Positions 33,328 to 62,397 are shown, counted from the stretch's first letter. The stretch: DNA of 64,000 nucleotides from Sphingobium sp. BYY-5 (GCF_022758885.1 NZ_JALEBH010000002.1:372001-436000); one strand, 5' to 3'. Numbers and translations are program-made. Notes: generated from the sequence alone by a model not told the origin.

Positions 33328-33367
33328 AGAGCGGCCGAGCCGATGCAATCGGACCGCAAACCGCTCT
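33328..33367 (-). terminator. Nested hairpin at the end of the hydroxyproline epimerase gene
   Basis: AGAGCGG and CCGCTCT (33328-33334, 33361-33367) pair around an inner CCGAT-GCA-ATCGG hairpin. The outer arm overlaps the epimerase stop. It could act as a terminator for the leftward operon, but no T run is visible. Confidence 0.4.
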
Positions 33368-34364
33368 AAATCACCTGGAAACCGGCCCAGAAAGGATCGG
33401 CGCGGTCGATCCATATGGTGTTGAAGCCGGTCGCCACCGCCGACCCTTCGATCGACGGGACGATCGCGGGCTGGTCGCCCAGCATCACCGCCTGCTCGAC
33501 CCGGCCGATGAAGCGGCTGCAGATATAGCTTTCGTGGACGAAACGATCGCCCACCTTCAACCGGCCCGATGCCGCCAGATGCGCCAGCCGCGCAGAGGTG
33601 CCGGTGCCGCACGGACTGCGGTCGATCGCCTTATCCCCATAGAAGACGGCATTGCGGCCATCGGCACCATCGCTCTTGGGCCTGTCTGCCCACAGAATAT
33701 GGCTGACGCCGCGGATGGTGGGATCAAGCGGGTGGACCGGTTCATACTTCTCCCGCACCGCCGTGCGGATGCGACCACTCAGATCGATCAGCCGCGACGC
33801 CCCCATATCGTCCAGGCCGGTATAAGCGCCCTGCGGCTCGATGATCGCATAATAATTGCCGCCATAGGACACATCGATCGACAACGGGCCGATGCCCTCG
33901 ACATCCACCTCGATCCCCTTCGCCGCGACATAGGCCGGGACATTGGTGATGCGCACCGCCGTCACCTTCTGCCCTTCCGTCTCATAGGCGATGTCAATCA
34001 CACCCGCAGGCACCTCGACCTTCAACCGCCCCGGCGTTGCGGGCTGGATCAGGCCATGTTCCAGGCCGAAGGTGATGATACCGATCGTGCCATGACCGCA
34101 CATGGGCAGGCAGCCACTGGTTTCGATGAACAATATGCCGATGTCATTCTGCGGATCGACCGGCGGATAGAGGAAGCCGCCCGACATCATGTCATGCCCG
34201 CGCGGTTCGAAACAAAGCCCGGTGCGTATCCAGTCGAAACGCGCCAGGAAATCCTGCCGCCGTTCCGACATGGACGCGCCCTTCAGCAGCGGCGCCCCGC
34301 CCGTCACCAGGCGGACGGGGTTTCCGGCCGTGTGGCCGTCAATGCAGAAGAAGGTGTGACGCAT
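33366..34364 (-). CDS. 4-Hydroxyproline 2-epimerase (proline racemase family)
   Basis: The 332-residue protein is full length for the proline racemase family. Both catalytic cysteines are present, C89 in M-C-G-H-G-T and C252 in S-P-C-G-T-G-T-S-A, which indicates the epimerase rather than the trans-3-hydroxyproline dehydratase (which has a Ser/Thr in one position). It converts trans-4-hydroxy-L-proline to cis-4-hydroxy-D-proline, the first step of bacterial hydroxyproline catabolism, in the cytoplasm. It lies 11 nt downstream of the DapA-like deaminase gene in one operon led by a perfect copy of the GntR-type operator. Hydroxyproline occurs mainly in plant extensins, arabinogalactan proteins and animal collagen. 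Confidence 0.9.
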   Translation of the reverse strand: MRHTFFCIDGHTAGNPVRLVTGGAPLLKGASMSERRQDFLARFDWIRTGLCFEPRGHDMMSGGFLYPPVDPQNDIGILFIETSGCLPMCGHGTIGIITFGLEHGLIQPATPGRLKVEVPAGVIDIAYETEGQKVTAVRITNVPAYVAAKGIEVDVEGIGPLSIDVSYGGNYYAIIEPQGAYTGLDDMGASRLIDLSGRIRTAVREKYEPVHPLDPTIRGVSHILWADRPKSDGADGRNAVFYGDKAIDRSPCGTGTSARLAHLAASGRLKVGDRFVHESYICSRFIGRVEQAVMLGDQPAIVPSIEGSAVATGFNTIWIDRADPFWAGFQVI

Positions 34365-34375
34365 CGCCGCTCGTC

Positions 34376-35290
34376 TCAGGCCGCAGCCGCGACCGACAGG
34401 TCGGGACGGGTCGCCGCCGCCTTCTCCACCATGGCGATGACCTCGGCGCGACGCTCACCCTGCAACACCAGGCGCGGGGGCAGAACGCGCTCCGAACCAC
34501 GGCCCATCACCTGCTCGGCCAGTTTGATCGACTGGACCAGATCATGCTCGGCATCCAGATGCAGCAGTGGCATGAACCAGCGATAGATTTCCATCGCCTT
34601 GGCATGATCGCCGCGCTCGAAGGCGCAAACCAGTTCGACCGACTCCTTGGGGAAGGCGTTGGTCAGACCCGACACCCAACCCTGCGCGCCGAGATACAGC
34701 CCCTCCAGCGCCACGTCGTCCAGGCCGGCGAACAGCGTATAGCGATCCCCGAATGCGTTGCGAAAATCGGTGAAGCGACGCGTATCCGGCGCCGATTCCT
34801 TGACCGCGACGATATTCTTCACATCGACCAGCGCGCTCAGCACATCCTGGTCGATGACGGTGCGATAGGCTGGTGGGTTATTGTAGAGCATGATCGGCAG
34901 GCCGGTCTGGTCCGCAACACCCTTGAAATGGGCGACCAGTTCGTGCGGCTTGGTGACATACACCATCGGCGGCAGCAGCATCAGGCCATCCGCGCCAGCC
35001 TTTTCAGCCGCCTGAGCATAGCGGACGGCGCGGCGCGTATCAAACTCCGACACGCCGGTGATGACGGGAACGCGGCCCGCAACAACCTCCACGATCGCGG
35101 AAAGAACCGACACTTTCTCATCATATTCCAAGGAGTTGTTCTCGCCCACCGTACCCAGCGCAATGATACCGGTGACGCCATCCTTGATAAGATCGTCAAC
35201 GACGCGCTGCGTATCGGCGAGGTCGATCGACAGATCCGCACGCAGTTGCGTAGTGACCGCCGGGAACACGCCCTTCCAACCAATTGCCAT
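34376..35290 (-). CDS. DapA-family aldolase/deaminase, probably 1-pyrroline-4-hydroxy-2-carboxylate deaminase
   Basis: A 304-residue DHDPS-fold enzyme with Schiff-base K164 in V-A-V-K-E-S, Y136 in L-Y-N-N-P-P and the phosphate-loop-like G-T-V-G-E-N-N at 46-52. In hydroxyproline operons a DapA homologue deaminates 1-pyrroline-4-hydroxy-2-carboxylate to alpha-ketoglutarate semialdehyde; co-transcription with the epimerase supports that role. Other DapA-like functions (a keto-deoxy-acid aldolase) cannot be excluded by sequence. The start codon lies 34 nt from a perfect 18-base palindrome. The D-hydroxyproline dehydrogenase and the semialdehyde dehydrogenase needed to complete the route are not in the window. 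Confidence 0.82.
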   Translation of the reverse strand: MAIGWKGVFPAVTTQLRADLSIDLADTQRVVDDLIKDGVTGIIALGTVGENNSLEYDEKVSVLSAIVEVVAGRVPVITGVSEFDTRRAVRYAQAAEKAGADGLMLLPPMVYVTKPHELVAHFKGVADQTGLPIMLYNNPPAYRTVIDQDVLSALVDVKNIVAVKESAPDTRRFTDFRNAFGDRYTLFAGLDDVALEGLYLGAQGWVSGLTNAFPKESVELVCAFERGDHAKAMEIYRWFMPLLHLDAEHDLVQSIKLAEQVMGRGSERVLPPRLVLQGERRAEVIAMVEKAAATRPDLSVAAAA

Positions 35291-35321
35291 AGATGTTCAT
35301 CCTGCCTTTTCTGATAATCTA

Positions 35322-35339
35322 AATATCGTATACGATATT
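35322..35339. promoter_or_regulatory. GntR-type operator, site A (perfect)
   Basis: AATATCGTATACGATATT is a perfect 18-base palindrome upstream of the hydroxyproline operon. Its 14-base core TATCGTATACGATA recurs with 10-13 matches at 38257, 45157, 45358, 52144, 52311 and 62384, each before a gene of the presumed glycoprotein-utilisation set. Confidence 0.75.
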
Positions 35340-35428
35340 ACGTTAAAGGTTGCAACGGATTTTTTGCAGTGCGGCAATCCTATAGCGGTTTGGGTGTAGC
35401 AACGATCGGGATCGCCCCAAAAGAGAAA

Positions 35429-35479: not shown

Positions 35480-38218
35480 TCAGAAGCGAAACCGGACGCT
35501 GGCTTGCGCTGTCCGTGCAAGGGTGCGAACGCCCAGCGGCAAGAGATTCTGGCTGCCATGGTAACGGAACACATCACTGCCCAGGAGGTTCGTCGCCTCC
35601 AACGACAGGGTCATGAACTTGACTGGCGTGTAGTTAACGGCAGCATCGAGCCGTTCCGTTGACGCATTATAGGGCGAATAGGTCGCATCCTGCGTACCGT
35701 CGCTGGTATCGAGCCAGATACCCATGCGATAGGACGAACGGTAGTTATAAGCGACGCGCGCGCTGAACTTCGTCGTGTCGTAGAACAAGGCCAGATTGGC
35801 GGTCCATTTCGAAGTGTTCGGGGAGTCAAACTCGCCCGGAAAACTTTCCTCATCATCATATTCGACCCGCGCCTTGAAGATGTGCGACGCATTCAGGCTG
35901 ACGCCGAAATTGCGAAGTGCGCCCGGTAGAAAGTCAAAGAAAGTCTGGAACGTGCCTTCGACACCCGTAAAGGTGCCGTCACCAACATTGCGTAACTGCT
36001 CGATATAACCGAAGGATGCATTATACTTGGCCAGGTCGATTCCATAGAGAGCCAATTGTGCAGCGTTAGCCTGCTCACGGCTGCTGAGCAGGAATCCCGT
36101 GGCCTTCTTGTGATAACCAGCGAGTGAAATCTGCCCTCCGCGCCCGAAATAATATTCGGCGCTGATGTCGAAGGCTTGCTCACGCTGGGCTTTCAGGTCC
36201 GGATTGCCCGCATAGACGACCGGCGGATTGGCGCGCGTCTCGGCATAATAGAAGGGACGCGAATCAAAGAAACTGGGGCGCTGGACGTTCGTGCTGTAGG
36301 CAAGGCGAAGCTGCATTTTCGGCGTGAAGTGGATGATCGCCGAAGCGCTGGGCAGGACATCATAATAATTGCCGTGACCCGGCGATGCCTGGACAATGTC
36401 CTGATAGCCGTTGGTCACGTCACCCGGACGGTAGTTGAAGCTTTGCGAATTGCCCCATGTATTGGTGTAACGCACGCCGGCCAAACCATCGACGGGAATG
36501 CTACCCAGCTTAAAGCCCCAGTTGAGTTGGGCGTAGGCTGCGAAATTCTTCTCGTTGGACTCGAAGGTTTGGCCACGGTCGCTCGGCGGATAGACGCTCG
36601 AAAACCGCTCGGTGTTGGCGGGATCATATTGCTGGATGAAGGCGCGAATATCGTCAATATTCGAAAGTACCACCGATCCGGGGATGCGATACCATTGGGT
36701 GGTGGCACCGCCAATGTCAGGACCGACCAGCGACGCGCTGTCATAGCCGGGGAATAGGCTCAGCGGCGCATAAGTCCCGTTCACACGTGGAAAGCCGTCC
36801 CGATAGCCATAATAGCGGCTGGTGCGGCGCTGATTGTAACGTCCGCCGACCTGCAGGCTGCGCAGGAAGGATTCGTCGCTAAGCCGCAGGGTCAGGTCGG
36901 CCTGGCTGGCGAATTCCTTGTTCTTCGATCCGCCACGATTGTCCTGGAAGCGGTCTATCCCATAACTCGACAGGTCGGAAAGATCGACGCCGTTGAAGGT
37001 GATCGACGGCGCACCCTTGCTGTACAGGTCCGAAGCGAAATCGACTGTGGCCGAGTTCAGGTTCGTCGGGCGCAAAATGGTCTCGACGAAATAATTGCCT
37101 TCATTCGACCAGTTATACTGCGCACTGACGTTAAGTTGCACGCGATCATTATGCCAATGTGCTTCGAGGTTGCTGGTGTAGAGGTTCGAGTGGATTGAAT
37201 TATATTGGGAATCTATGCCCGCCGGAATACCGTTCGGATTGCTGATCGTCAACGACTTCACCGTCCGGCCGTCAGGCATGAGCACGATGTCACTATAGTT
37301 GGTGGCGAACGGCATATCTTGGACGTAGAGGCGTTCGACCGAGCGCTTTTCGCGCGATCCCAGATAGCCGCCTTCCAGCACAAAATCGAGATTGTCGCTC
37401 GCCCGCCACTGCAACACGGCATTGATGGAGGGGCGCTTCACATTGCCCTGCTCAATGCCGTATTGCGCTCGATACGGGATCACCACGGTCGAGCCATCGA
37501 TGTTGGTCTTGAAAGGCGATTCACTCTCGATATAGTTTTCGCGATAATTGTTTCTGGTCAGCGAAGCGTTCACCAGGAAACCGATTTCACCGATGCCGGT
37601 ATCGAAGCGGTTCGCCACCAGAAGGCTGCCATAGGGGCTGACTTTCTCGGAGATGTCGTCATAGGAGCCGCGAAGGCTGCCCGCGACAGTCCAGCCCTTC
37701 TTGAGATCGAACGGCCGGCGCAATTCGACATTGACGGTACCGGCGATGCCGCCCTCGACCTGATCGGCCGAACGGGTCTTGTAGATGTCCACCGATTTGA
37801 GCAGTTCAGCCGGAATATCCGCGAGATTGAGCGAACGGCCATCACCAAGGTTGGTATTGTTGCCGTTGACCGTGGTCTGCACCTGGGCAAGGCCGCGAAT
37901 TGTCACGCTTTGCCCCTGACCGCGCGCGCGGTCGATCTGCACACCGGTCACGCGCGCCAGCGCTTCAGGAACGTTATTGTCCGGCAATTTACCGGCATCT
38001 TCCGCGACAATCGAGTCGACGATCTGCTTGCTGTTCCGCTTTTTGGTGGATGCAGCCTCGACGCTGCCGCGGACGCCGGTGACGATGATGTCTGCCTTGG
38101 TGGTATCCTTGGAGTCCGAGGAATTGGGCGCATTCTGCGCCATTGCCATGGCGGAAACGGACGCAAATGCAAGGACGGACAAAGCCGCCGACATGTTGAA
38201 AATCGTACGTGACTTCAT
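35480..38218 (-). CDS. TonB-dependent receptor of the hydroxyproline-glycoprotein regulon
   Basis: A 912-residue outer-membrane receptor with a signal peptide (M-K-S-R-T start, cleavage after M-A-M-A-Q). The plug opens with D-I-I-V-T-G-V-R-G-S and carries the D-S-I-V-A-E-D-A-G-K-L-P-D-N-N-V-P-E-A-L block of the Xanthomonas/Caulobacter polymer-receptor group. The barrel ends in A-Q-A-S-V-R-F-R-F. GntR site B is 39 nt upstream of the start. Placed between hydroxyproline catabolic genes and the GH127 operon, it probably imports glycopeptides or arabino-oligosaccharides released outside. Monocistronic, with its own terminator. Confidence 0.9.
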   Translation of the reverse strand: MKSRTIFNMSAALSVLAFASVSAMAMAQNAPNSSDSKDTTKADIIVTGVRGSVEAASTKKRNSKQIVDSIVAEDAGKLPDNNVPEALARVTGVQIDRARGQGQSVTIRGLAQVQTTVNGNNTNLGDGRSLNLADIPAELLKSVDIYKTRSADQVEGGIAGTVNVELRRPFDLKKGWTVAGSLRGSYDDISEKVSPYGSLLVANRFDTGIGEIGFLVNASLTRNNYRENYIESESPFKTNIDGSTVVIPYRAQYGIEQGNVKRPSINAVLQWRASDNLDFVLEGGYLGSREKRSVERLYVQDMPFATNYSDIVLMPDGRTVKSLTISNPNGIPAGIDSQYNSIHSNLYTSNLEAHWHNDRVQLNVSAQYNWSNEGNYFVETILRPTNLNSATVDFASDLYSKGAPSITFNGVDLSDLSSYGIDRFQDNRGGSKNKEFASQADLTLRLSDESFLRSLQVGGRYNQRRTSRYYGYRDGFPRVNGTYAPLSLFPGYDSASLVGPDIGGATTQWYRIPGSVVLSNIDDIRAFIQQYDPANTERFSSVYPPSDRGQTFESNEKNFAAYAQLNWGFKLGSIPVDGLAGVRYTNTWGNSQSFNYRPGDVTNGYQDIVQASPGHGNYYDVLPSASAIIHFTPKMQLRLAYSTNVQRPSFFDSRPFYYAETRANPPVVYAGNPDLKAQREQAFDISAEYYFGRGGQISLAGYHKKATGFLLSSREQANAAQLALYGIDLAKYNASFGYIEQLRNVGDGTFTGVEGTFQTFFDFLPGALRNFGVSLNASHIFKARVEYDDEESFPGEFDSPNTSKWTANLALFYDTTKFSARVAYNYRSSYRMGIWLDTSDGTQDATYSPYNASTERLDAAVNYTPVKFMTLSLEATNLLGSDVFRYHGSQNLLPLGVRTLARTAQASVRFRF

Positions 38219-38256: not shown

Positions 38257-38270
38257 TATCGTATACCAAC
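38257..38270. promoter_or_regulatory. GntR-type operator, site B
   Basis: TATCGTATACCAAC keeps the complete left half-site of the 14-base core (11 of 14 matches to site A) and lies 39 nt upstream of the TonB receptor start. Confidence 0.6.
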
Positions 38271-38367
38271 TACATTATTTTGTCGGAGTCAAGAAAATTG
38301 CAAGCTGCCGGCAACAAAGCCGCAAAGGTGCAAAATCACCCGCCCAAGTCACAGAAAATCAAAGAAA

Positions 38368-38428: not shown

Positions 38429-39988
38429 TCAACCGCAGGCGGGCGCCGGTCCTTCATCCCCTTTGCGCGTAATCGGCGGCGCAGCCTTGGGTGCCAGCAC
38501 CGCCCATTCCTGGACGGCAAGGCCGGCGTGGCTCTTGCCGTCACCCGACGCCGTCATGACCGCCCGCAGGCAACGGGTGCGGATCGGCGGGAAAGCAACC
38601 GCCTGGAACATGCCAGGCGTGGTGCCGTAAACGCCATGGCCCGGCACGGCTTCCCACCCCTGGTTCCAATATTCCAGATGCCAGGCGGCCGGCGGCGCCA
38701 CGCCGATGCCCGATCCGGCCGGCTGGTCGTTCCAGAACCAGATGCGCGATCCGTTGATCGTGACCGGCTTGTCCCAGCGATATTCGATCCATTGGCTGGG
38801 CGGATTGTTTGCGGTCCAGCTTCCCCACATATCGGGCGGCAAGGGTGCAGCCTTGGTGATGCCGTCATTCAGCGCCTTGATCCAGAACTGGACCGGCACC
38901 GGATCGTTGGAGGCGTTCGCAGAGGCCGCGCGCGCGATGTTGCGGGTAGGCGGCAACGGCGGCTGGGGCCGCAGCGTCGGCACAACCGTGCGGATACGCG
39001 CAGGCGTGACGCTGTCATCCCATTCCATCCGGTCGATTGCCACACTGCGGCGGAAATGCCCCCCGCCCTTCGCATCGGCGGTGTGATAGGCCAGATACCA
39101 TTGCCCCTTATAGTCGACCGCGCCCGGATGGGATGTGGTCGAGGATACCGGTTTCAGCACGACCCCGCGATAGGTCCACGGTCCCATCGGCGAGGACGCG
39201 GTGCCATAGGCGATACAGGCATGATAGACCGCCTGGGTGCAGTCGGAGGTCGGACCGGCGTTGTTGCCGGCATAGAGCATATAATAGACGCCCTTGCGCT
39301 TCATGATCCAGGGCGCCTCGAAGAAGCCGGTCAGCCCTTCGATCGCCTGTTCCGCTCCCTTGGGCGTCACCATGTCGCGGTCCAGCTCAATACCACGCAA
39401 TTGGCCGAACGTACCCCAATAGATATAGGCGCGGCCATCATCGTCGATGAGGATGGTCGGGTCGATATTCTGGATATCGTTCTTCACCGGCACTCGTTGG
39501 GAGATGATTGGTCCCGACGGATGCGCATCGCGCCACGGCCCGATCGGACTGTCCGCCACCGCCACGCCGATGGCGAAACGGTCCTTGGCGTCACTGTTCT
39601 TTTCCAGCACCGGCGCGTAGAAATAGTAACGCTTGTCCGGCCCCTGCACGATCTGCCCGGCATAGGCGCGCGCCTCCTCCGCCCAGGCGAAGACATTTTC
39701 GGGCCGGGCGATGTTCGGATAATGGGTCCACCTGCCCGCCACCGGATCGTCGGTCTTGAGCAACTGCCATTCGCCCATGATGAAATCATTGACGTCGGGC
39801 GGCGCCTGGTCGCGGCCCGCCAATATCCACAATGCGCCATCGGCGACGAAGGGCGCAGGGTCCGTCGAATAATAGTCGCCATCCGCCAGGATGGGATTGC
39901 CCGGCACGCTGATCTGGCGCGGCTCTTCCGCGCGGGCCGAACCGGCCACCATCGCCAGCGCAAGGCCGACGAGCAGTCTATTCCTCAT
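38429..39988 (-). CDS. Secreted GH43 family glycosidase with C-terminal sugar-binding-like domain
   Basis: The 519-residue protein has a signal peptide (M-R-N-R start, cleavage after G-S-A-R-A). The GH43 five-bladed propeller shows the expected acidic triad: general base D43 (T-D-P-A-P-F), D176 (I-D-P-T-I-L) and general acid E224 (F-E-A-P-W). Residues from about 340 resemble a discoidin/F5-8C-type beta-sandwich (W-I-E-Y-R-W, then R-I-W-F-W-N-D). GH43 enzymes attack arabinan, xylan side chains or arabinogalactan; specificity is open. The ATG lies inside the end of the DUF885 peptidase gene (11-nt overlap), making it the last gene of a four-gene coupled operon. The frame to 40012 gives no better start. 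Confidence 0.85.
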   Translation of the reverse strand: MRNRLLVGLALAMVAGSARAEEPRQISVPGNPILADGDYYSTDPAPFVADGALWILAGRDQAPPDVNDFIMGEWQLLKTDDPVAGRWTHYPNIARPENVFAWAEEARAYAGQIVQGPDKRYYFYAPVLEKNSDAKDRFAIGVAVADSPIGPWRDAHPSGPIISQRVPVKNDIQNIDPTILIDDDGRAYIYWGTFGQLRGIELDRDMVTPKGAEQAIEGLTGFFEAPWIMKRKGVYYMLYAGNNAGPTSDCTQAVYHACIAYGTASSPMGPWTYRGVVLKPVSSTTSHPGAVDYKGQWYLAYHTADAKGGGHFRRSVAIDRMEWDDSVTPARIRTVVPTLRPQPPLPPTRNIARAASANASNDPVPVQFWIKALNDGITKAAPLPPDMWGSWTANNPPSQWIEYRWDKPVTINGSRIWFWNDQPAGSGIGVAPPAAWHLEYWNQGWEAVPGHGVYGTTPGMFQAVAFPPIRTRCLRAVMTASGDGKSHAGLAVQEWAVLAPKAAPPITRKGDEGPAPACG

Positions 39989-50568: not shown

Positions 50569-50569
50569 C

Positions 50570-52157: not shown

Positions 52158-52310
52158 TATAAATTATGCACAGCAACAGGCCTTGCTCCACCATGCGCGA
52201 CATCCATCCCAGTATATTATCGTCGGCTCGTGCCGACGTGCGTGCCGGGCGATGATCATGCTGTCGGGCATCGATAAAGCCACGCCTTTGCAGTGCAACA
52301 CCACATCATC

Positions 52311-53057: not shown

Positions 53058-54473
53058 ATGCTCGGACCACGCAAATCCATCGAAAAGCTCGCCCAGCGCG
53101 AGTCCGGGCATAGTCTGGCCAAGACATTGAGTTGGCCCCATCTGATCGCGCTGGGCGTCGGCGCGATCGTCGGCACCGGCATCTATACACTGACAGGTGT
53201 CGGCGCCGAGCGCGCCGGCCCCGCCGTCATCCTGGCCTTCGCCATTGCCGGCGCGGTCTGCGCCTGCGCCGCGCTCGCCTATGCCGAAATGGCCACCCTT
53301 ATCCCGGCGGCGGGCAGCGCCTATACGTTCAGCTATGCCGCCATGGGCGAAACCATCGCCTGGATCGTCGGCTGGAGTCTGATCCTCGAATATTCGCTTG
53401 CCTGTTCGACCGTCGCGGTAGGCTGGTCGGGCTATCTGGTCGGCTGGCTGCAATCGACGGGCGTCCATCTGCCCGCGATGTTGCTGGTCGGGCCGCATGG
53501 CGGGGGTCTCATCAACCTGCCTGCCGTCCTCGTCGCATTGGCCGTGATGGGGATGTTGATCGCCGGGACGCGCGAAAGCGCAACGCTCAACATCATCCTC
53601 GTCATCATCAAGCTGATTGCCCTGTCGATCTTCGTCGCGATGGCGCTGCCTGCCTTTCAATCGACCAATCTCGAACCCTTCATGCCCTATGGTTTCGCCA
53701 GCACAGAGATTGAGGGGCAGAAGCGCGGCGTGATGGCGGCGGCGGCCATCGTCTTTTTTGCCTTCTATGGCTTCGATGCCGTCGCTACTTCGGCGGAAGA
53801 AGCCAAGAATCCGGGTCGCGACCTGACCATCGGCATCATCGGGTCGATGCTGGTCTGCACCGTCATCTATATGGCGGTCGCTATCGCCGCCGTGGGCGCC
53901 CTGCCCTTCCTCCAGCTCGCCAATTCGCCGGAGCCGCTGGCGCTGGTCCTGCGCCAGCTTGGCCAGCCGGTCGCCGCCCACCTGATCGCGCTCGCCGCCG
54001 TCATCGCCCTGCCTTCGGTCATTCTGGTGATGATGTATGGGCAAAGCCGCGTCTTCTTCGTCATGGCGCGCGACGGGCTGCTGCCGCGTAGCCTGGCCAA
54101 GATCAGCCCGCGCACGGGCGCGCCGACCCGCATCACACTGATGACCGGTATCTCGATCGCCCTGGTCGCCGGTATCTTCCGCCTGGATGAGATCGCCGAA
54201 CTCGCCAATGCCGGCACCTTGATCGCCTTCATGGCGGTGGGCGCCTGCCTCATGATCCTGCGCCGCCGATCGCCCGAATTGCCGCGCCTGTTCCGTTGCC
54301 CGCAACCCTATGTCGTCGGCACGCTGACCATATTGGGCTGCGCCTATCTGCTCTTCAGCCTGCCCGACGCCACGCTGGTGCGCTTTGGCGTCTGGAACGT
54401 GATCGGCCTGCTCTTCTACTTCCTTTACAGCCGCAGCCGCAGCGATGCCCGACGGGATGCCGCCATCGCCTGA
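53058..54473 (+). CDS. APC-family amino acid permease
   Basis: A 471-residue inner-membrane permease with twelve hydrophobic segments, of the cationic-amino-acid-transporter-like (YfnA-type) branch. The TM1 unwound motif G-V-G-A-I-V-G-T-G-I-Y and the TM6 string F-F-A-F-Y-G-F-D-A-V-A-T-S-A-E-E are present. It imports amino acids with protons. It begins 24 nt after the GntR gene and precedes the GH27 gene, so it belongs to this operon. Uptake of free hydroxyproline or proline would complete the set with the peptide carrier. Confidence 0.85.
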   Translation: MLGPRKSIEKLAQRESGHSLAKTLSWPHLIALGVGAIVGTGIYTLTGVGAERAGPAVILAFAIAGAVCACAALAYAEMATLIPAAGSAYTFSYAAMGETIAWIVGWSLILEYSLACSTVAVGWSGYLVGWLQSTGVHLPAMLLVGPHGGGLINLPAVLVALAVMGMLIAGTRESATLNIILVIIKLIALSIFVAMALPAFQSTNLEPFMPYGFASTEIEGQKRGVMAAAAIVFFAFYGFDAVATSAEEAKNPGRDLTIGIIGSMLVCTVIYMAVAIAAVGALPFLQLANSPEPLALVLRQLGQPVAAHLIALAAVIALPSVILVMMYGQSRVFFVMARDGLLPRSLAKISPRTGAPTRITLMTGISIALVAGIFRLDEIAELANAGTLIAFMAVGACLMILRRRSPELPRLFRCPQPYVVGTLTILGCAYLLFSLPDATLVRFGVWNVIGLLFYFLYSRSRSDARRDAAIA

Positions 54474-54526
54474 CGGCGGCGCATCCTGTCCATATCAGCT
54501 CCAATCCGATGCCGAAGGAGATCGCG

Positions 54527-56044
54527 ATGTCACGCGCCCTTTTCACCGCAACCGCCCTTGCTGCCGCCTCCCTCTGTGCAGCATCTCCTGCCGCTGCCAA
54601 AACCGCTTTCGACGGCGTCTGGCTGTTCGACAAGGCGCCCCCGATGCCCGGCGTCACGATGATGGAAGTAAGGAGCAAGGGCGCGAAAATCGAAGGTCAT
54701 GTCACCACTCTCTGGTACGGCCCGATCGAGATGATGAACCCGCGTATCCAGGACGGCCGCCTGCTGTTCGAAGCGCGCAACATCAATGATCGCGATCATC
54801 CCACACGCCCATGGAGTGTCAGCCTGGACAAGGGGCAGGCACATCTGAAAGGCCGAATCTGGGCGAGCGAGGTCGATACCCAGGGCTATCGTGGCACGAC
54901 GAAAGACGCCAAGGCCCGCACCTTCCGCTTCACCGCGCTGCCGCCGCTGGGCCAGCCCATTCCCGGCAAGCTCGCCACGACACCCCCCATGGGATGGAGC
55001 AGTTGGAACAAATTCGCCGAACATATCGACGACAGGACGGTGCGGGCCATGGCCGACGCGATGGTGTCAACCGGCCTGCGCGATGCGGGCTATCTTTACA
55101 TCAACATCGATGATGGCTGGCAGGGCAAGCGCGACGCCAATGATATGCTCCAGCCCAATGAGAAGTTCCCGGACATGAAGGCGTTGACCGCCTATGTCCA
55201 TTCGAAGGGGCTGAAGATCGGCATCTATAGTTCGCAGGGGCCGCGCACCTGCGCCGGATATGAAGGCAGCTACGGCCATGTCGCGCAGGATGCGAAGAGT
55301 TTCGCCGATTGGGGCTTCGACTATCTGAAATATGATCTCTGCTCGGGCGAATGGTTCTACGCCGATGCCGATAGGGTGAAACGCAGCTATCATGAAATGG
55401 GCGCAGCGTTGCAGGCGACCGGGCGGGACATCCTCTTCTCGCTCTGCGAATATGGCCGCTTCGACGTGGGCAGTTGGGGCCGGGACGTGGGTGGTCAGCT
55501 CTGGCGCACGACCGGCGACATCACCGACGATTATGAGACGATGACCAAAATCGGCTTCGACAAGAATGGCAATCCCGCTCATGCTGGCCCGCATGGCTGG
55601 AACGATCCCGACATGCTGGAAATCGGCAATGGCGGGATGAGCGCCGCCGAATATCGCACCCATATGACGCTATGGGCCATGTCGGCCGCGCCGCTGATGA
55701 TGGGCCATGACCTGCGCGAAACGAGCGCGGAGACCTTGGCTCTGCTGACCAATCGCCGCGTCATCGCGGTCGATCAGGATGCGCGCGGCGTGCAGGGCAA
55801 GGCGGTGCGCAAACAGGGCGCGCTGGAAGTCTGGGCCAAGCCGCTCGCCGATGGTCGCGTGGCGCTGGCCCTGTTCAATCGCGGCGCCGAAAGCGCGTCT
55901 CTGGAGCTGACCGCCGCCGACGCCGGTTTCTCCTCTGTTACCCAGGTCGAGGATCTCTGGTCGGGCGCCACCGCCGCCATCCTGCCAACCAGCTACACCG
56001 TCCCGGCGCATGGCGCGGTGATGATCGCGGTGAAGGGGCAATAA
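54527..56044 (+). CDS. Secreted GH27 alpha-galactosidase with extra N-terminal domain
   Basis: A 505-residue protein. Its signal peptide (cleavage near P-A-A-A) is followed by an unusual beta-rich domain of about 115 residues (26-140). The GH27 barrel starts at P-P-M-G-W-S-S-W-N, with nucleophile D270 (K-Y-D-L-C) and acid/base D362 (N-D-P-D-M-L); the C-terminal beta-sandwich follows. GH27 enzymes release alpha-linked galactose (some alpha-N-acetylgalactosamine or beta-L-arabinopyranose). Extensins carry single alpha-galactose units on serine, a fitting substrate. ATG 54527 has AAGGAG nine nt upstream; the long frame to 54296 overlaps the permease. The stop shares one base with the GH2 start. 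Confidence 0.9.
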   Translation: MSRALFTATALAAASLCAASPAAAKTAFDGVWLFDKAPPMPGVTMMEVRSKGAKIEGHVTTLWYGPIEMMNPRIQDGRLLFEARNINDRDHPTRPWSVSLDKGQAHLKGRIWASEVDTQGYRGTTKDAKARTFRFTALPPLGQPIPGKLATTPPMGWSSWNKFAEHIDDRTVRAMADAMVSTGLRDAGYLYINIDDGWQGKRDANDMLQPNEKFPDMKALTAYVHSKGLKIGIYSSQGPRTCAGYEGSYGHVAQDAKSFADWGFDYLKYDLCSGEWFYADADRVKRSYHEMGAALQATGRDILFSLCEYGRFDVGSWGRDVGGQLWRTTGDITDDYETMTKIGFDKNGNPAHAGPHGWNDPDMLEIGNGGMSAAEYRTHMTLWAMSAAPLMMGHDLRETSAETLALLTNRRVIAVDQDARGVQGKAVRKQGALEVWAKPLADGRVALALFNRGAESASLELTAADAGFSSVTQVEDLWSGATAAILPTSYTVPAHGAVMIAVKGQ

Positions 56045-59000
56045 TGATACGAATACTGATGCAATCCTGCGCCGCCAGCGCTTTAGTCACCAGTCTTCTT
56101 CTCGTTCCAACCTTTGCGCAGGTCGATCCGCCCGAATGGGAACAGCCGGAGGTGACCCGCCAAGGTGCCGAGCCGATGCACACGACTTTCGACGGGTTCG
56201 AGACGCGCGCGGGCGCCCTGTCGCGCGATACGGCCAAGTCCCGCTATCATCTCTCGCTCGACGGCGAATGGAAGTTTCACCTTTCGCCCACACCCGAAAG
56301 CCGCCCGGTCGACTTCTATCGTCCCGATTATGACACCAGCGGCTGGGGCACGATAACGGTGCCCGGCATCTGGCAGGCGGAGGGCCATGGCCGCCCGGTC
56401 TTCGTCGGCAGCGGCTATCCCTTTCCGCGTAACCAGCCGAAAATCGATCACAGCCTCAACGAGGTCGGCTCCTATCGGCGCGAAGTCGTCATCCCCGCCC
56501 ATTTCGCCGGCCGCCGCCTGCTGCTGACCATCGGCGCGGCGGGCGCGGCCTATTATCTCTGGGTCAACGGCCAGCAGGTCGGCTATTCCGAAGACTCCAA
56601 ACTGCCCGCCGAATTCGACATCAGCCGTTACGCGCGCCCCGGCCGCAATCTGATCGCGATCGAACTCTATCGCTTCGCCGATGGCAGCTATCTGGAAGAT
56701 CAGGACTTCTGGCGGGTCAACGGCATCGAGCGCAGCATCAGCCTTTATGCAGCGCCGCCAACCCATATCCGTGATCTGACCGTCGATGCCGGACTGGAGC
56801 ATGACTATCGCGACGGACGGTTGGGTCTGACGGTCGATGTCGGTGGCAGCGGTCCAGCCGCGACGCGCGTACGCGCGACCCTGCTCGATGGCCAACACAG
56901 CCTGTTCGTGCGTGAAGCAAACGGCCGCCCTTCCGTCCGGATCGCCGCCAGTCTGCCGGACGTGAAGGCATGGACCGCCGAAACACCCAATCTCTACACG
57001 CTGCTGATCGAACTGCTGGATGACAAGGGCAAGCTGATCGAGGCGACCAGCCGCCGCATCGGTTTCCGCACCGTCGAGATCGCCGAAGGCGAAGTGCGGG
57101 TGAACGGCAAGCGGATCATGATCCGCGGCGTCAATCGCCACGAACATGATCCCAAGACCTTCCGCATCGTTTCCGAAGCGACCATGCGCCGCGACATCGA
57201 ACTGATGAAGGCGGCCAATATCAATGCGGTGCGCACATCCCACTATCCCAACGATCCGCGCTGGTATGATCTGGCCGACGAATATGGGCTCTACATCATG
57301 GATGAGGCCAATATTGAGAGCCATGGCTATCTCAGCCTGTCGCAGGAGCGGGGCAATGATCCTTCCGTGCTGCTGGGCAACGACCCTGCCTGGCGCGCCG
57401 CGCATCTCGACCGGGTGCAGCGGATGGTCGCGCGCGATCGCAACCATCCTTCCGTCATCTTCTGGTCGCTGGGCAATGAGACCGGCATCGGCTCCAGCTT
57501 CGAGGAAGCGGCGAAATGGGTGAAGGCCAATGACCCGTCGCGCCTCGTCAGCTTCCTGGGCTGGAGCATGAGCGGCTGGCGCCACCCGGTGAACCCCTAT
57601 GTCGATATCTTCGCGCCCATGTATGACGATGTGCCCAAGATGGTGGATTATGCGCAGGACCCGGCCCTCAAACAACCGCTGATCCTCTGCGAATATGCCC
57701 ATGCCATGGGCAACAGCCTGGGCGATCTGGAGGGATATTGGCAGGCAATGCGGTCGCATCGAAAGTTGCAGGGCGGTTTCGTCTGGGACTGGGTCGACCA
57801 GACGATCCTGATGACGGACAAGGACGGGCGGCCCTATTGGGGCCAGGGGCTGGACTATGATCCCGATCCCAAGGCGCCCGGCGTGCATGGCGACGACAGC
57901 CCGGTGGGCGACGGTGTGATCCAGTCCGACCGCACGCCCGATCCGGAATATTATGAACTGGCCAAGGTTCAGTCCCCGATCGCCTTCACAGCTGACGCCG
58001 GCGGCTATCATATCCTCAACCGCCACGACCATATCGACCTGTCGCGCTTCACATTGGACTGGACGCTGATGGAGGACGGCGTCGCCGCCGCGCAGGGCAG
58101 CCTGCCCATGCCCACCGTCGCGCCGGGGGAAAGCGCGCCGCTGCCCCTATCCCTCCCCGCGCCGAAAAATGGATCGGCCGAGCGCATCCTTATATTGCGC
58201 GCCCGCGCCAGGGCAGGTGCGGTGCCGATGCTGCCCGCTGGCCATGTCGTGGGCTGGGAGCAATTTCCCCTGTCCGCGCCCGCCCTCCCCGCGCCACCGC
58301 CCGGCGATATTGTGCCAGTCGAGACGTCCGGCACGCTCAGCCTGTCGGCCGGCGGCAATGTGCTGGAGATCGACCGCGCGACCGGGCTGGTGCGGCGCTA
58401 TGCGCGTGGCGGTACGCTGCTCCTCTCCGGCGGCGCACCCAATTTCTGGCGCGCGCCGACCGACAATGACATCGGCGCAGGCGTCCCCAAAAGCCATGCC
58501 ATGTGGCAATATTTCTCCGAGCATCGGCGCGTGGAATCGGTCGAGCGATCGGGCAACGCCATCATCGTGCGCCACGATATGGGCGTGGGATCGGTGAAGG
58601 TCGAAACCCGCTGGACGATGGCGGCGGACGGCCGCGTCGGCGTAACGATGCGCTTCGATCCGATCCGCGACACGCTGCCCGATCCATTGCGGGTCGGCCT
58701 TGCCTTCGACACATCCGCCACCCTGACCAAAGTGAACTGGTACGGCCGTGGCCCGCAGGAGACCTATGCTGACCGCAAGACCGGCGGCCTTATCGCACGT
58801 TGGAGCGGGACCGTCGCGGATCAATATCATGATTATGCCCGTCCGCAGGAATCGGGGAACAAGAGCGACGTGCGCTGGATCGAGCTGACCGGCGGCGGCA
58901 CGGGCCTGCGTGTCATCGGCGCGCAACCGCTCTCGGTCAATGCGCTCGCCTTCCCCTATGCCGACCTGGCGATGAAGCCACCGGCCCAAGCGCACAGTTC

Positions 59001-59160
59001 CGACATCCGCCCGCATGGCAATGGCACGCTGCTGATCGATGCGGCGCAGGCGGGCGTGGGCGGCGACACCGGATGGAATCTGGACGGACGGCCCCACATG
59101 CCCTTCCGCATCCCGCTCAAGTCGATGACCTATTCCTTCACCATCGACGCATCGCGCTGA
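56044..59160 (+). CDS. Exported GH2 beta-galactosidase (LacZ-like)
   Basis: The 1038-residue protein has a signal peptide (cleaved near T-F-A-Q) and the five-domain LacZ layout: sugar-binding jelly roll (about residues 60-230, with W-R-V-N-G-I-E-R), two immunoglobulin-like domains around a TIM barrel holding the acid/base E479 (G-N-E-T-G) and nucleophile E550 (L-C-E-Y-A-H-A-M-G-N-S), and the C-terminal Bgal_small_N domain (R-A-P-T-D-N-D-I-G). It hydrolyses terminal beta-galactosides. Its periplasmic location and coupling to GH27 (TAATG) point to plant galactan or arabinogalactan side chains rather than lactose. A strong intrinsic terminator follows. Confidence 0.92.
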   Translation: MIRILMQSCAASALVTSLLLVPTFAQVDPPEWEQPEVTRQGAEPMHTTFDGFETRAGALSRDTAKSRYHLSLDGEWKFHLSPTPESRPVDFYRPDYDTSGWGTITVPGIWQAEGHGRPVFVGSGYPFPRNQPKIDHSLNEVGSYRREVVIPAHFAGRRLLLTIGAAGAAYYLWVNGQQVGYSEDSKLPAEFDISRYARPGRNLIAIELYRFADGSYLEDQDFWRVNGIERSISLYAAPPTHIRDLTVDAGLEHDYRDGRLGLTVDVGGSGPAATRVRATLLDGQHSLFVREANGRPSVRIAASLPDVKAWTAETPNLYTLLIELLDDKGKLIEATSRRIGFRTVEIAEGEVRVNGKRIMIRGVNRHEHDPKTFRIVSEATMRRDIELMKAANINAVRTSHYPNDPRWYDLADEYGLYIMDEANIESHGYLSLSQERGNDPSVLLGNDPAWRAAHLDRVQRMVARDRNHPSVIFWSLGNETGIGSSFEEAAKWVKANDPSRLVSFLGWSMSGWRHPVNPYVDIFAPMYDDVPKMVDYAQDPALKQPLILCEYAHAMGNSLGDLEGYWQAMRSHRKLQGGFVWDWVDQTILMTDKDGRPYWGQGLDYDPDPKAPGVHGDDSPVGDGVIQSDRTPDPEYYELAKVQSPIAFTADAGGYHILNRHDHIDLSRFTLDWTLMEDGVAAAQGSLPMPTVAPGESAPLPLSLPAPKNGSAERILILRARARAGAVPMLPAGHVVGWEQFPLSAPALPAPPPGDIVPVETSGTLSLSAGGNVLEIDRATGLVRRYARGGTLLLSGGAPNFWRAPTDNDIGAGVPKSHAMWQYFSEHRRVESVERSGNAIIVRHDMGVGSVKVETRWTMAADGRVGVTMRFDPIRDTLPDPLRVGLAFDTSATLTKVNWYGRGPQETYADRKTGGLIARWSGTVADQYHDYARPQESGNKSDVRWIELTGGGTGLRVIGAQPLSVNALAFPYADLAMKPPAQAHSSDIRPHGNGTLLIDAAQAGVGGDTGWNLDGRPHMPFRIPLKSMTYSFTIDASR

Positions 59161-59407: not shown

Positions 59408-62323
59408 TTAGAAATTGACCGTCGCCCCGAAGAAGATGTTCCGGCCCAGCGAGTCATAGACGCCCGGATAGGTGTTTCCGTTGCCGAAGGACGACAGAAT
59501 GCCGGCGGCTAGTGCAGGCGGGTCCTTGTCGAACATATTGTTGACACCGGCGCGTATGGTCAATTGCTTGCCGATCGACTGGGTCAGCGACAGGTCGAAA
59601 TAATTATAGTCGTCAATCTTGCGGTTGATGACGCTGGACGGCGAACCGTTCAGCAGAGTATTATCCGACAGGCTGGACAATGTCGTGCCGCCGATATGGC
59701 GCCAGGACAGGGAAAGCACCGTATCGCTCGGCGCCATCCAGCTAAAGCGGGCCACGTGCCGCCATTCGGGCGAAGGCTGGCCGCAGGTATAACCGAACAT
59801 GCCCTTGCAGTCATAGCTGCCCAGCCCCGGCTGCGGCTGCGCCACCTGTTCGGCAAGCCAGGTGCCGACCATGTTGACGTTGACCTTGCCCATCTTGCCG
59901 ATGCCGAACGTATAGTCCGCGGTCACATCGATGCCCGATGTCTTCAAATAGCCGGTGTTGAGCGTGGTCGAGACGATATAGCCGTTCTGGCCGAAGATCG
60001 CACCGGAGCGCGGATCGCGATTGAACAGGCTGCAATAATAAGGATCGCCCGACCTGGTGCATTCACTGATAATCAGCGCCGGGCTGATCGAATTGATATA
60101 GTCCTTTACCTTGATCTTGTAATAGTCGACCGACAGCGAGAAGTTACGCAGCGCACGCGGCGTCAGCACAAAACCGGCGGTGATCGTATCGGCCGTTTCC
60201 GGCTTCAGGTTGCGGTTGCCGCCGCCCAGTGCCGAACAGGTTTCGGCCGGGCACTCGACGATGTTGCCATATTGCGCAGTGGTGACGCCGGTGAGTGCAC
60301 AGGTTTCCGGCGATGCGACCGGGTCCGTACCCGCACATGGATCGGAACCGGCGACGTTGCCGACCGACTGCGACGCGAACAGTTCGGTAATATTCGGCGC
60401 GCGGATCGCGTGATTGTAGCTGGCGCGCAGGCGCACATCATCAACCGGCTGCCAGCTCAACTCGCCCTTGTAAGTCCAGACACCATAGCTCGACTTGTAG
60501 CCGGTCGACTTCTGCTCATTCTTGTAGGAGGAGTAACGCAGACCGCCGTTGATCGTCAGCGAGCGGATGAACGGCATATCCTGGATCAGCGGGATTTCGA
60601 TTTCGCCATAGCCTTCGGTCACGCTGATGATGCCATCGGCATTGGTGCTACCGCCCTGCTGCGCGATCTCGTCGGCGAAGAAGTTCAGCGTTTCGCGGCG
60701 ATGTTCCGCACCCAGCGCGATACCGACGCCCCGGCTGGCCCACGGGCTGGTAATGCCCATCTGGCCCAGGTCGCCGCTCAGCGTGCCGGAGAATATCTGC
60801 TGCGCATTGCGCGAAGACGTATTGCTCGGCGTGAAGAGATAGCTGCCCTGCTCGGCGGTCACGCCGCCTGCGGCGAAGACATTGGCCGGAATGCAGTTCG
60901 GGTCGGTGCCGTCGATCACAGAGCGGCAGGTGGCGACGCCGTTGACGCTGACCACATCCAACGCGCGCTGCGCCTTCACCGCGTCGACATTGTTGAGGTA
61001 GCGTTCCTTGAACCGGACCAGCGAATAGAGATAGTTCACATCATAGCTGAACCCGCTACCCAGATCGCCGCGCACACCGGCGGTATAGCGATAATCATTA
61101 TATTTCAGGTCATCGCGGCGCGGCGCGATCGACATGCGATAGCCGACCAGCGCGTCGGCGGTCTGGGCCGTCCCGGCCTTGCTGCCGCACAGGGTCTGTA
61201 ACTGGCTCGCGCTGGCGAGCGGATTGTTGCACGAAATGGCGAAGGGCGACCCCAGGAAGATCGCCGACGGCGCCACCTGCGAAAATGTATGGTCGCGCAT
61301 GAACATGAAGCTGCCATAGACTTCCGCCGCCTTGCTCAGTTCGAACTTGGCGAAGGCGCCCGCGGTGATACGCTCGTCGGAACGCTGGAAATAATTGTCC
61401 GGCGCATAATTATAGGCATAGCTGTTGTCATAAGGGACGAAAGTCTGCGTGCCGTCCCGGTTGTTGGTCAGCGTCCGCCCCTGGGACGCGCCTTCCAGCG
61501 GGACGAAGGTGCCATAGGGCGTGTTGCTCGACCCGCCGCAGAAGAGCGCGGTGCCTGCATCATCCGCCTGTTGCAACGCGCAGGAGGAAACGTCGCGATT
61601 CGACTGGCGGACCGGACTGAAATGGCGATAACCGCCATAGACGGTGATGTTGCCGCGGCCGTCGGCAAAATTCTTGCCCGCCGAAATGGTGATATCCTGC
61701 TTGCCGCCATCCATCACCGACCCGTTGGCCAGGCGATAGCCCTTGTCGTCCAGCAGGCTGCGCACCGCGCCATTATTATTGTCGTGCTGGAAGAAGCCGG
61801 TCTGGGCGTCGATGCGGATGCCGTCCAGATTATCCTTGAGCACGAAATTGACCACGCCCGACATCGCATCGGACCCATAGACGGCCGAAGCGCCGCCGGT
61901 CAGCACATCGACCCGCTCGACCAGGCTGCTGGGAACGAAATTGAGGTTGACCGCCTGCTGCGGCAACATGCGCTGGCCGTTGACCAGCACCAATACGCGG
62001 TTGGAACCCAGATTGCGCAAGTTGATCTTCGACGTGCCGTCCGATCCGTTCGACACATTCTCGTTCTCGGCGGCGGTAAACTGCGGCAGGCGGTTGAGCA
62101 CGCCCTCCACCGTGGTCGCGCCCTGATAGCGAAACTCTTCGGAACCGACGACGGTCTGGGGACTGTTGCTCTCCAGATCCGGGCGCTTGATGCGCGTGCC
62201 GGTGACGACGATTTCACTGGTGCCACCCGCATCCGCAGCCTGCGGTGTTTGAGCATTGGCTGCCCCTGCCAGCAGAGCGGACAAAGCCGCTGCGCAATAA
62301 AATTTCGTGCGGTGATTCCGCAT
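59408..62323 (-). CDS. TonB-dependent receptor, second receptor of the GntR regulon
   Basis: A 971-residue outer-membrane receptor: signal peptide (M-R-N-H-R start, cleavage after A-N-A-Q), TonB-box-like E-I-V-V-T-G-T-R, plug block S-A-V-Y-G-S-D-A-M-S-G-V-V-N-F, and a barrel ending N-I-F-F-G-A-T-V-N-F. It belongs to the same subgroup as the quinate-locus receptor at 14476 rather than that at 35480, so the regulon has two structurally different receptors. GntR site F is 61 nt upstream. It may import a different fragment, for instance galacto- or arabinogalacto-oligosaccharides. Confidence 0.9.
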   Translation of the reverse strand: MRNHRTKFYCAAALSALLAGAANAQTPQAADAGGTSEIVVTGTRIKRPDLESNSPQTVVGSEEFRYQGATTVEGVLNRLPQFTAAENENVSNGSDGTSKINLRNLGSNRVLVLVNGQRMLPQQAVNLNFVPSSLVERVDVLTGGASAVYGSDAMSGVVNFVLKDNLDGIRIDAQTGFFQHDNNNGAVRSLLDDKGYRLANGSVMDGGKQDITISAGKNFADGRGNITVYGGYRHFSPVRQSNRDVSSCALQQADDAGTALFCGGSSNTPYGTFVPLEGASQGRTLTNNRDGTQTFVPYDNSYAYNYAPDNYFQRSDERITAGAFAKFELSKAAEVYGSFMFMRDHTFSQVAPSAIFLGSPFAISCNNPLASASQLQTLCGSKAGTAQTADALVGYRMSIAPRRDDLKYNDYRYTAGVRGDLGSGFSYDVNYLYSLVRFKERYLNNVDAVKAQRALDVVSVNGVATCRSVIDGTDPNCIPANVFAAGGVTAEQGSYLFTPSNTSSRNAQQIFSGTLSGDLGQMGITSPWASRGVGIALGAEHRRETLNFFADEIAQQGGSTNADGIISVTEGYGEIEIPLIQDMPFIRSLTINGGLRYSSYKNEQKSTGYKSSYGVWTYKGELSWQPVDDVRLRASYNHAIRAPNITELFASQSVGNVAGSDPCAGTDPVASPETCALTGVTTAQYGNIVECPAETCSALGGGNRNLKPETADTITAGFVLTPRALRNFSLSVDYYKIKVKDYINSISPALIISECTRSGDPYYCSLFNRDPRSGAIFGQNGYIVSTTLNTGYLKTSGIDVTADYTFGIGKMGKVNVNMVGTWLAEQVAQPQPGLGSYDCKGMFGYTCGQPSPEWRHVARFSWMAPSDTVLSLSWRHIGGTTLSSLSDNTLLNGSPSSVINRKIDDYNYFDLSLTQSIGKQLTIRAGVNNMFDKDPPALAAGILSSFGNGNTYPGVYDSLGRNIFFGATVNF

Positions 62324-62383
62324 TGTCGCGTTCCTCCCTTTTAGGACCGCTCTTTATTGCGATATATGACAGCTCCTGTCAAA

Positions 62384-62397
62384 TACCGTATACGAAA
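62384..62397. promoter_or_regulatory. GntR-type operator, site F
   Basis: TACCGTATACGAAA matches the core at 12 of 14 positions and is centred on the same GTATAC. It lies upstream of the receptor gene (start 62323) in the 349-nt divergent gap 62324-62672, which otherwise shows no gene I can support. Confidence 0.6.

Follow-up and report, generated by a model that had tools for sequence, protein, structure and literature searches.

A 64,000-nucleotide stretch of Sphingobium sp. BYY-5 (the window, C2:372001-436000 of a 4.70 Mb genome in two contigs, C1 and C2) contains genes for predicted hydroxyproline breakdown (hyp genes) interspersed with genes for predicted exported glycosidases and peptidases, two carriers, two TonB-dependent receptors and a GntR-FCD regulator (Table 1). 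These units likely form a HypR-type regulon by which the hydroxyproline-rich glycoproteins of plants (extensins, and probably also arabinogalactan proteins) would be consumed. Co-regulation of the units is well supported in silico, and the substrate and all enzyme activities are predictions. The first-pass annotation had proposed one co-regulated unit for deglycosylation, prolyl cleavage, import and hydroxyproline breakdown; conserved neighbourhoods and a shared motif support this in silico, and whole-genome motif searches recovered the same enzyme families elsewhere in relatives. Scanning the window genes between 33.4 and 62.4 kb with Pfam and NCBIfam profiles bore out every gene on its list, and an Ldh_2 gene that it had left unnoticed was found between the GH146 and DUF885 genes, overlapping the former by 4 bases. 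By the GH146 gene, the closest listed locus was that of Sphingobium lactosutens (94% identity, very near records possibly having been left out).

Table 1. Predicted genes and putative operator sites of the locus (positions in the window; scores are profile matches).
Feature	Position	Strand	Evidence
HypRE, predicted 4-hydroxyproline 2-epimerase, predicted cytosolic, Cys89/Cys252 pair	33366..34364	-	NF010578 542.6 bits (cut-off 376); PF05544
HypD, predicted Δ1-pyrroline-4-hydroxy-2-carboxylate deaminase, DapA-like	34376..35290	-	PF00701 192 bits; operator 34 bp upstream
Operator 1, palindrome ATCGTATACGAT, before hypD-hypRE	35320..35341		
TonB-dependent receptor 1	35480..38218	-	TIGR01782 528 bits (cut-off 310)
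Operator 2, before TonB receptor 1	38257..38274		
Predicted exported GH43, α-L-arabinofuranosidase or β-xylosidase	38429..40012	-	PF04616; nearest PDB chains Gly43N, Xsa43E
Predicted exported DUF885 protein	39978..41807 (start more likely 41750)	-	PF05960 509 bits
Ldh_2 imino-acid reductase, predicted pyrroline-2-carboxylate reductase (HypS/DpkA type)	41747..42769	-	PF02615 311 bits
Predicted exported GH146-type β-L-arabinofuranosidase (Pfam 'GH127')	42766..45135	-	PF07944 393 bits; DUF6805 C-terminal domain
Operator 3, ATCGTATACTATACGAT, 22 bp before GH146	45153..45174		
Operator 4, one mismatch, ATCGTATAA, before S9 operon	45359..45367	+	
Predicted exported S9 prolyl peptidase (DPP IV / prolyl tripeptidyl peptidase type)	45440..47809	+	PF00930, PF00326
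Predicted exported DUF5695 protein, PL27-like fold	47806..50568	+	DUF5695 1282 bits
POT di/tripeptide:H+ symporter	50570..52084	+	TIGR00924 351.6 bits (cut-off 130.2)
Operator 5, before regulator operon (autoregulation predicted)	52144..52161		
GntR-FCD regulator, HypR-like	52377..53033 (start 52377 inferred)	+	PF00392, PF07729
APC amino-acid permease, predicted proline/hydroxyproline uptake	53058..54473	+	PF13520 194.7 bits
Predicted exported GH27 α-galactosidase	54509..56044 (start 54509 or 54527)	+	PF16499 227 bits
Predicted exported GH2 LacZ-type β-galactosidase	56044..59160	+	PF02836 302.8 bits; NF052611 894 bits (under cut-off 999)
TonB-dependent receptor 2	59408..62323	-	PF00593, PF07715
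Operator 6, ACCGTATACGAA, before TonB receptor 2	62384..62401		

Most of the locus is flanked by two hairpins resembling repetitive extragenic palindromic elements (33224-33292 and 59308-59376), 88% complementary and 26 kb apart. An AraC-family regulator (62622-63548) lies divergent from TonB receptor 2, and the operator-bearing spacer is common to both.

A shared putative operator in the window and in relatives

The motif was taken as ATCGTATAC(GAT), and the window was searched for the 9-mer ATCGTATAC with at most one mismatch. Six sites lay 22-223 bp before the genes for hypD, TonB receptor 1, GH146, S9, GntR and TonB receptor 2, each preceding the first gene of a unit, and the best copy was a palindrome (operator 1). 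The one-mismatch variant of operator 4 recurred in the GH146/S9 spacer of a relative (G175). Over the whole genome, TATCGTATACNNWNWNNW with one mismatch gave 9 matches, 7 of them in the window at five sites, against 4 for the reversed control; one of the two matches outside the window (C2:210821) preceded a DAO-family gene. Operator-like matches at C1:113119 and C2:1290818 were taken as chance as they overlap reading frames, and so was C1:49784, which lies over short frames and about 300 bp ahead of the next long one. The regulator possessed GntR helix-turn-helix and FCD domains, and its homologues adjoined hyp genes in G001, G029 and G095. The operator before the hyp genes has the GT-2nt-AC spacing reported for HypR sites (PMC4494728; PubMed Central, PMC, papers are cited here from the parts of their text available), and the GntR-FCD protein is predicted to be a HypR-like regulator of this putative operator.

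The motif was then counted in two sets of loci. The 36-locus set came from the BYY-5 genome and 27 relatives (28 genomes; 2 of 38 stretches without a listed gene were dropped), and the 80-locus set comprised the best 80 of 417 relatives in the GH146 alignment, chosen by GH146, with 10-kb flanks, overlapping in species with the family-genome set described below. Upstream windows ran from -300 to +14, with starts inferred from homology. The 36-locus set held 97 merged sites in 74 kb of upstream sequence versus 71 in the remaining 1.16 Mb (21.4-fold), and the 80-locus set 196 in 165 kb versus 99 in 1.58 Mb (19.0-fold), compared to an average of 1.7-fold for 100 permutations of the 9-mer. As divergent genes share spacers, the counts by gene (Table 2) are not independent, and the low counts belong to genes that mostly sit behind another gene of their unit. 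The shared operator of the first-pass annotation was upheld by position and conservation across genomes and not by the window count alone.

Table 2. Loci with the putative operator upstream of each gene, out of loci possessing the gene.
Gene	36-locus set	80-locus set
HypD	26/26	49/51
DAO	26/26	22/26
GH146	23/25	67/80
TonB receptor 2	16/20	13/14
TonB receptor 1	2/3	18/22
S9	4/8	24/39
DUF5695	7/14	23/56
GntR	8/28	6/30
DUF885	9/28	0/69
Ldh_2	6/16	1/52
GH27	2/4	1/10
HypRE	2/28	2/36
APC	0/23	2/24
GH43	0/4	0/41
GH2	0/2	0/3
POT	0/1	0/4

The motif appears to have originated as a hydroxyproline operator, since G001, G029 and G095, which possessed hyp genes and no close GH146 homologue (G029 had one of 39%), carried it before HypD/DAO. 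Among genomes in which GH146 lies away from HypRE, the operator was found at both places in G294 (1.6 Mb apart) and G297 (other contig), and the displaced GH146 of G182 had an operator with one mismatch.

Twenty further sites in relatives were hand-picked from whole-genome motif searches, and for each a stretch of at most 8 kb was read; sites in stretches read earlier were passed over, as were most of those whose GTATAC core was broken. Eleven of the 20 led families of the set, 9-202 bp before the first possible start: GH27, DUF885 (two), DHDPS (two), a TonB receptor, S9, an aldehyde dehydrogenase, GH2 and S9 back to back, and three Ldh_2 genes, of which one was back to back with DUF885. Seven of these were separated from the clusters that had been read by more than 30 kb or by lying on another contig, and four lay within about 20 kb of them (L226, L239, L242, L243). 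Three other sites led an MFS carrier, an MFS/GntR-FCD pair and an S10-like peptidase, and the remaining six led unannotated or unrelated genes, lycopene cyclase among them. In G144, a serine carboxypeptidase (S10)-like protein (L240:4021-5625) was encoded 11 bp behind an operator-like site. In G175, an 885-aa protein (L231:4113-6770) encoded 67 bp behind a perfect operator matched no Pfam family above cut-off (DUF481 weakly, at E 0.02) and is a candidate new member of the regulon.

Linkage of the glycosidase and hydroxyproline genes

The gene set first listed for the window was also sought in other sphingomonads, and conserved neighbourhoods were found. In a sample of 298 genomes of the family, BYY-5 included, a HypRE orthologue (at least 70% identity; in G159 in two pieces of 70 and 66%) occurred in 40, DUF5695 in 13, and GH146 of at least 55% identity in 25 (26 copies, 15 genera); GH127-family matches below 39% were not entered. 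HypRE was present in all 25 close-GH146 genomes versus 15 of the 273 others (Fisher test, 2.5e-26) and in all 13 DUF5695 genomes (6.7e-13), relatedness being ignored in both values. Twenty-one of the 26 GH146 copies, in 14 genera, lay at most 13 kb from HypRE; the other five were those of G294, the second copy of G052, and those of G182, G083 and G297 on other contigs. None of the 16 GH146 homologues of 39-52% identity in these genomes lay within 13 kb of HypRE.

The 80 loci belonged to sphingomonads or metagenome-assembled genomes grouped with them (66), Caulobacter (8), Acidobacteria (4) and others (2). Sphingobium limneticum is among the species that possess the locus (L122). HypRE, HypD or DAO lay within the 10-kb flanks in 51, 4, 0 and 0 of these respectively, the operator preceded GH146 in 58, 8, 0 and 1, and DUF885 was present in 60, 8, 0 and 0. 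In the acidobacterial loci (L186, L187, L190, L197), GH146 was 66-69% identical to the window gene and no HypRE, HypD or DAO was found within 10 kb; a transfer without the regulon is possible.

The oxidation step of hydroxyproline breakdown was absent from the window. A DAO-family gene, of the class for that step, lay about 160 kb to its left, with the C2:210821 operator match about 50 bp upstream; in the profile scan its product matched PF01266 (161.7 bits) and reached no NCBIfam cut-off. A DAO homologue accompanied HypRE in the hyp locus of 25 of the 27 relatives (exceptions: G083 and G182, 3.4-kb contig). For all 25, the displaced protein was the best of the eight BYY-5 DAO-family proteins (360-498 bits versus at most 41 for the others), and DAO and HypD shared the operator-bearing spacer in 17. 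As its homologues lie in the hyp loci of relatives, are reciprocal best matches and mostly share a spacer with HypD, the gene probably moved away from the hyp locus in BYY-5 and kept its operator. It is the probable D-hydroxyproline dehydrogenase for the missing oxidation step. The displaced gene is flanked by an Asp/Glu-racemase family gene (L049:6346-7089) and a PelZ-like pectate lyase (L049:15404-16798), with a TonB receptor also nearby. An aldehyde dehydrogenase candidate at C1:1644957 had 2,5-dioxovalerate dehydrogenase as best match, below the equivalog score for α-ketoglutarate semialdehyde dehydrogenase (85.6 versus 750 bits); its homologues occurred in 10 of the loci from relatives, with the operator directly upstream in G083 and G225.

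Predicted functions and compartments of the gene products

The protein read as GH127 in the first-pass annotation possessed the claimed Zn-thiolate Cys/Glu site and is closer to a different family. Pfam PF07944 spans both GH127 and GH146, and GH127 proper was rejected since the closest solved sequence was 5opj (BtGH146 per PMC10728902), with 476.7 bits versus 67.2 bits for HypBA1 (GH127). The residues E349, C351, C419 and C420 follow the Glu, Cys, Cys-Cys ligand pattern stated for Bll3HypBA1 (PMC10850190), and the BtGH146 pocket residues W162, E217 and Q689 correspond to W180, E235 and Q663, as counted by hand from a pairwise alignment with an assumed numbering offset of 2; both groups were invariant in an alignment of 13 sequences. 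By sequence and pocket residues, the product is thus of GH146 type. This family includes a hydrolase of hydroxyproline (Hyp)-β-linked arabinofuranose (Araf), XeHypBA1, which prefers Ara-Hyp (PMC6085000, PMC10850190). For GH27, the nearest PDB chain was 6f4c (339.8 bits), and a role as β-L-arabinopyranosidase was rejected on the scores (83 versus 340 bits for α-galactosidase).

The DUF5695 protein had no PDB sequence match at E 1. Its predicted model contains an N-terminal β-sandwich and an (α/α)6 barrel, as described for the PL27 L-rhamnose-α-1,4-D-glucuronate lyases (BACCELL_00875, 5no8; PMC8377490), and 603 residues superposed onto the 669-residue 5no8 chain at 3.7 Å and 14% identity, an extra C-terminal β-sandwich being the difference. 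In its predicted model, DUF5695 thus resembles PL27 gum-arabic lyases in fold, which favours arabinogalactan proteins as substrate, as well as extensin. No GH121 chain was among the 50 structure alignments listed for it, which is not evidence against GH121. Within the available text of the open PMC literature, DUF5695 turned up solely in a paper on fungal velvet regulators.

The S9 protein combined a DPPIV_N propeller and a Peptidase_S9 domain, with 2d5l as best PDB match (172.7 bits) and GGSAGG at 639, and is predicted to be of the dipeptidyl/tripeptidyl prolyl peptidase type. The nearest solved chain of the DUF885 protein was 3o0y ('lipoprotein') and no HExxH motif was found in it, its peptidase role being a guess from context. 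Both cysteines of HypRE (C89/C252) were present in the alignment and the NCBIfam '4-hydroxyproline epimerase' cut-off was exceeded, in agreement with the predicted 4-hydroxyproline 2-epimerase. HypD as a true DapA was rejected (180.2 bits, under the equivalog cut-off of 206.15). The best solved relative of Ldh_2 was 1wtj (ureidoglycolate dehydrogenase or Δ1-piperideine-2-carboxylate reductase; 243.7 bits), and MLD2-type ketimine reductases (PMC4113996) and a 'malate dehydrogenase', hypS (PMC5343134), adjoin hydroxyproline genes elsewhere. The APC permease was present in the hyp locus of most relatives.

Judged by eye, the N-termini of GH43, DUF885, GH146, S9, DUF5695, GH27, GH2 and both TonB receptors were signal-like, and those of HypRE, HypD, Ldh_2 and GntR were not. 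These compartments fit entry through the outer membrane, trimming and cutting in the periplasm, carriage over the inner membrane and breakdown in the cytosol. Glycopeptides would cross the outer membrane via the TonB receptors, and in the periplasm the lyase-like DUF5695, GH43, GH27 and GH2 would trim side chains, GH146 would remove the β-L-Araf held by hydroxyproline, and the S9 prolyl peptidase, perhaps with DUF885, would cut the freed peptides. POT and APC would carry di/tripeptides and free amino acids over the inner membrane. In the cytosol, the epimerase would yield cis-4-hydroxy-D-proline, which the distant DAO-family enzyme would oxidise; HypD would deaminate the product to α-ketoglutarate semialdehyde and an aldehyde dehydrogenase would convert this to α-ketoglutarate, with the Ldh_2 reductase returning proline-derived pyrroline-2-carboxylate to L-proline. 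The GntR-FCD protein is predicted to act as repressor of every unit and to release them on binding hydroxyproline or a derivative.

Two other regions of the window were read. An AP_endonuc_2 and HPPD fusion, a shikimate dehydrogenase-type protein, a large TonB receptor and an MFS carrier (11659-18779) look like a quinate/shikimate (3-dehydroshikimate) utilisation cluster, and at 125-3188 a GntR-FCD regulator adjoins DUF4861 and DUF2264 proteins, a set that may serve the use of uronates or glycans.

Alternative explanations and relation to known regulons

Several observations weigh against a single regulon for glycoprotein use. In the window, ATCGTATAC with at most one mismatch occurred 10 times versus 5.6 ± 2.6 in shuffled sequence, and 7 of 100 shuffles reached 10; as this is within chance, the whole-genome and cross-genome tests were used in its place. 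GH146 had no operator in G229 and G083, among the 25 GH146 loci of the 36-locus set. Within the 10-kb flanks of the 80 loci, which are short, HypRE was found in 36 and any of HypRE, HypD or DAO in 55, and six loci, including all four of Acidobacteria, had neither hyp genes nor a GH146 operator, so that GH146 also works outside the regulon context. GH43, S9, GH27, POT and GH2 were accessory (40, 37, 10, 4 and 3 of the 80 loci), and as the accessory glycosidases vary among relatives, it may also differ whether extensin or arabinogalactan protein is the precise substrate. The Asp/Glu-racemase family gene near the displaced DAO gene makes another D-amino acid possible as its substrate, and the C1:1644957 candidate of BYY-5 had no operator with one mismatch allowed.

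The glycosidases might instead serve pectic arabinan and galactan (rhamnogalacturonan I, RG-I), the hyp genes being neighbours or co-induced as wall pectin and protein arrive together. Loci for pectin and galactomannan commonly contain GH43, GH27 and GH2, and the PelZ-like pectate lyase (365 bits against a cut-off of 840) is about 6 kb from the distant DAO gene. Moreover, BT0349 (BtGH146), the nearest characterised GH146, acts on arabinan-derived oligosaccharides and belongs to an RG-I polysaccharide utilisation locus (PMC10850190). This explanation is nevertheless unlikely: the GH146 tied to HypRE is the close-identity group, with HypRE in 25 of 25 genomes, whereas the more distant homologues were never near it; the operator at the hyp genes of G001 and G095, where no GH146 homologue was found, also precedes GH146, even far off; and operator-marked units led by DUF885, Ldh_2 and S9 genes are unexplained by pectin use. 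There is also a small chance that the regulon scavenges proline and hydroxyproline peptides of any origin, such as collagen, with the glycosidases as passengers. Collagen carries no arabinose, no collagenase family was among the scanned window genes, and GH146 had the operator in most loci of both sets (the 80 having been chosen by GH146). On the other hand, the window holds S9, DUF885 and POT; in Alteromonadales, collagenases are part of HypR regulons together with proline peptidases and a di/tripeptide permease (PMC5343134), and the Streptomyces HypR regulon includes an M9 collagenase (PMC6608401).

The GTATAC-core sites could also be promoter-like AT-rich sequence or belong to another regulator, so that a shared motif would not mean shared control, which is very improbable. 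Besides the window count and the shared spacers of divergent genes, the highest permuted 9-mer by count, ATATATCGC, reached 9.4- and 13.1-fold, and ATCGTATACGATW with one mismatch also matched in 9 of 14 HypRE-negative genomes. However, ATATATCGC by inspection overlaps the flank of the same operator sites, perfect ATCGTATACGATW occurred in 11 of 18 HypRE-positive and 0 of 14 HypRE-negative genomes searched, genes mostly inside operons lacked the motif, and the GT-2nt-AC spacing is that of HypR sites (PMC4494728).

The regulon reading of the locus can be compared to published systems. HypR regulons of Proteobacteria and Streptomyces likewise hold a GntR-family regulator, epimerase, DAO-type dehydrogenase, DHDPS-type deaminase, aldehyde dehydrogenase and hypS (PMC5343134, PMC6608401). 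In some taxa they extend outwards to a TonB receptor, proline peptidases, a di/tripeptide permease and secreted collagenases, as reported for Alteromonadales and Aeromonas (PMC5343134), and Streptomyces HypR represses the M9 collagenase (PMC6608401), so that extension to protein breakdown was already known. These regulons target collagen, and the available text of PMC5343134 mentions no glycoside hydrolase or lyase; the Streptomyces operator CTNTGC(A/C)ATGTCAC (PMC6608401) also differs from ATCGTATACGAT. Conversely, the HypBA/HypAA systems of Bifidobacterium longum and Xanthomonas euvesicatoria combine, as here, a GH127/GH146-group enzyme with GH43 for Hyp-linked arabinosides, and in Xanthomonas a prolyl oligopeptidase pseudogene adjoins xehypAA (PMC6085000). 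They use the GH121 enzyme HypBA2, and no hydroxyproline catabolism, HypR operator or DUF5695 is described in the available text of PMC6085000 and PMC10850190; words starting with epimerase or catabol are absent from the former. Proline racemase neighbourhoods place 4HypE/t3HypD beside DAAO, DHDPS, aldehyde dehydrogenase and MLD2 genes (PMC4113996, in whose main text words starting with sphingo or glycoside are absent), and extensin breakdown with GH127 was predicted for Latescibacteria, with no hydroxyproline catabolic gene named in the available text (PMC4454575). The available text of PMC9203511 held no statement on the subject.

A hydroxyproline regulon holding plant-glycan enzymes was not found in searches of the open PMC literature (most subscription papers lying outside it), and the general plan was already described for collagen. 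Since collagen versions are published and a glycosidase-holding one was not found, the locus is likely a variant of the HypR regulon, a plant-glycoprotein counterpart of the collagen versions. More tentatively, the hydroxyproline regulator may be the master switch of a complete plant-glycoprotein harvest in sphingomonads and Caulobacter, in which a single repressor, sensing the imino acid set free, governs the Hyp-arabinoside hydrolase and the route to α-ketoglutarate along with DUF5695, as a new PL27-like lyase family removing acidic arabinogalactan caps, and DUF885 proteins, as prolyl peptidases of a new kind, so that glycan degradation is induced by the protein backbone and not by a sugar; this combined reading is possible rather than probable. 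Plant walls and gums are rich in extensins and arabinogalactan proteins, and to our knowledge the consumption of whole glycoproteins by common plant-associated bacteria is poorly described. A hydroxyproline-keyed regulon, as seen in loci of Sphingobium, Novosphingobium, Sphingomonas and Caulobacter, would connect work on HypR/collagen regulons with that on Hyp-arabinoside glycosidases. It would also suggest functions of DUF5695 and DUF885 that can be tested, and would allow more glycoprotein-degrading enzymes to be sought with a single motif.

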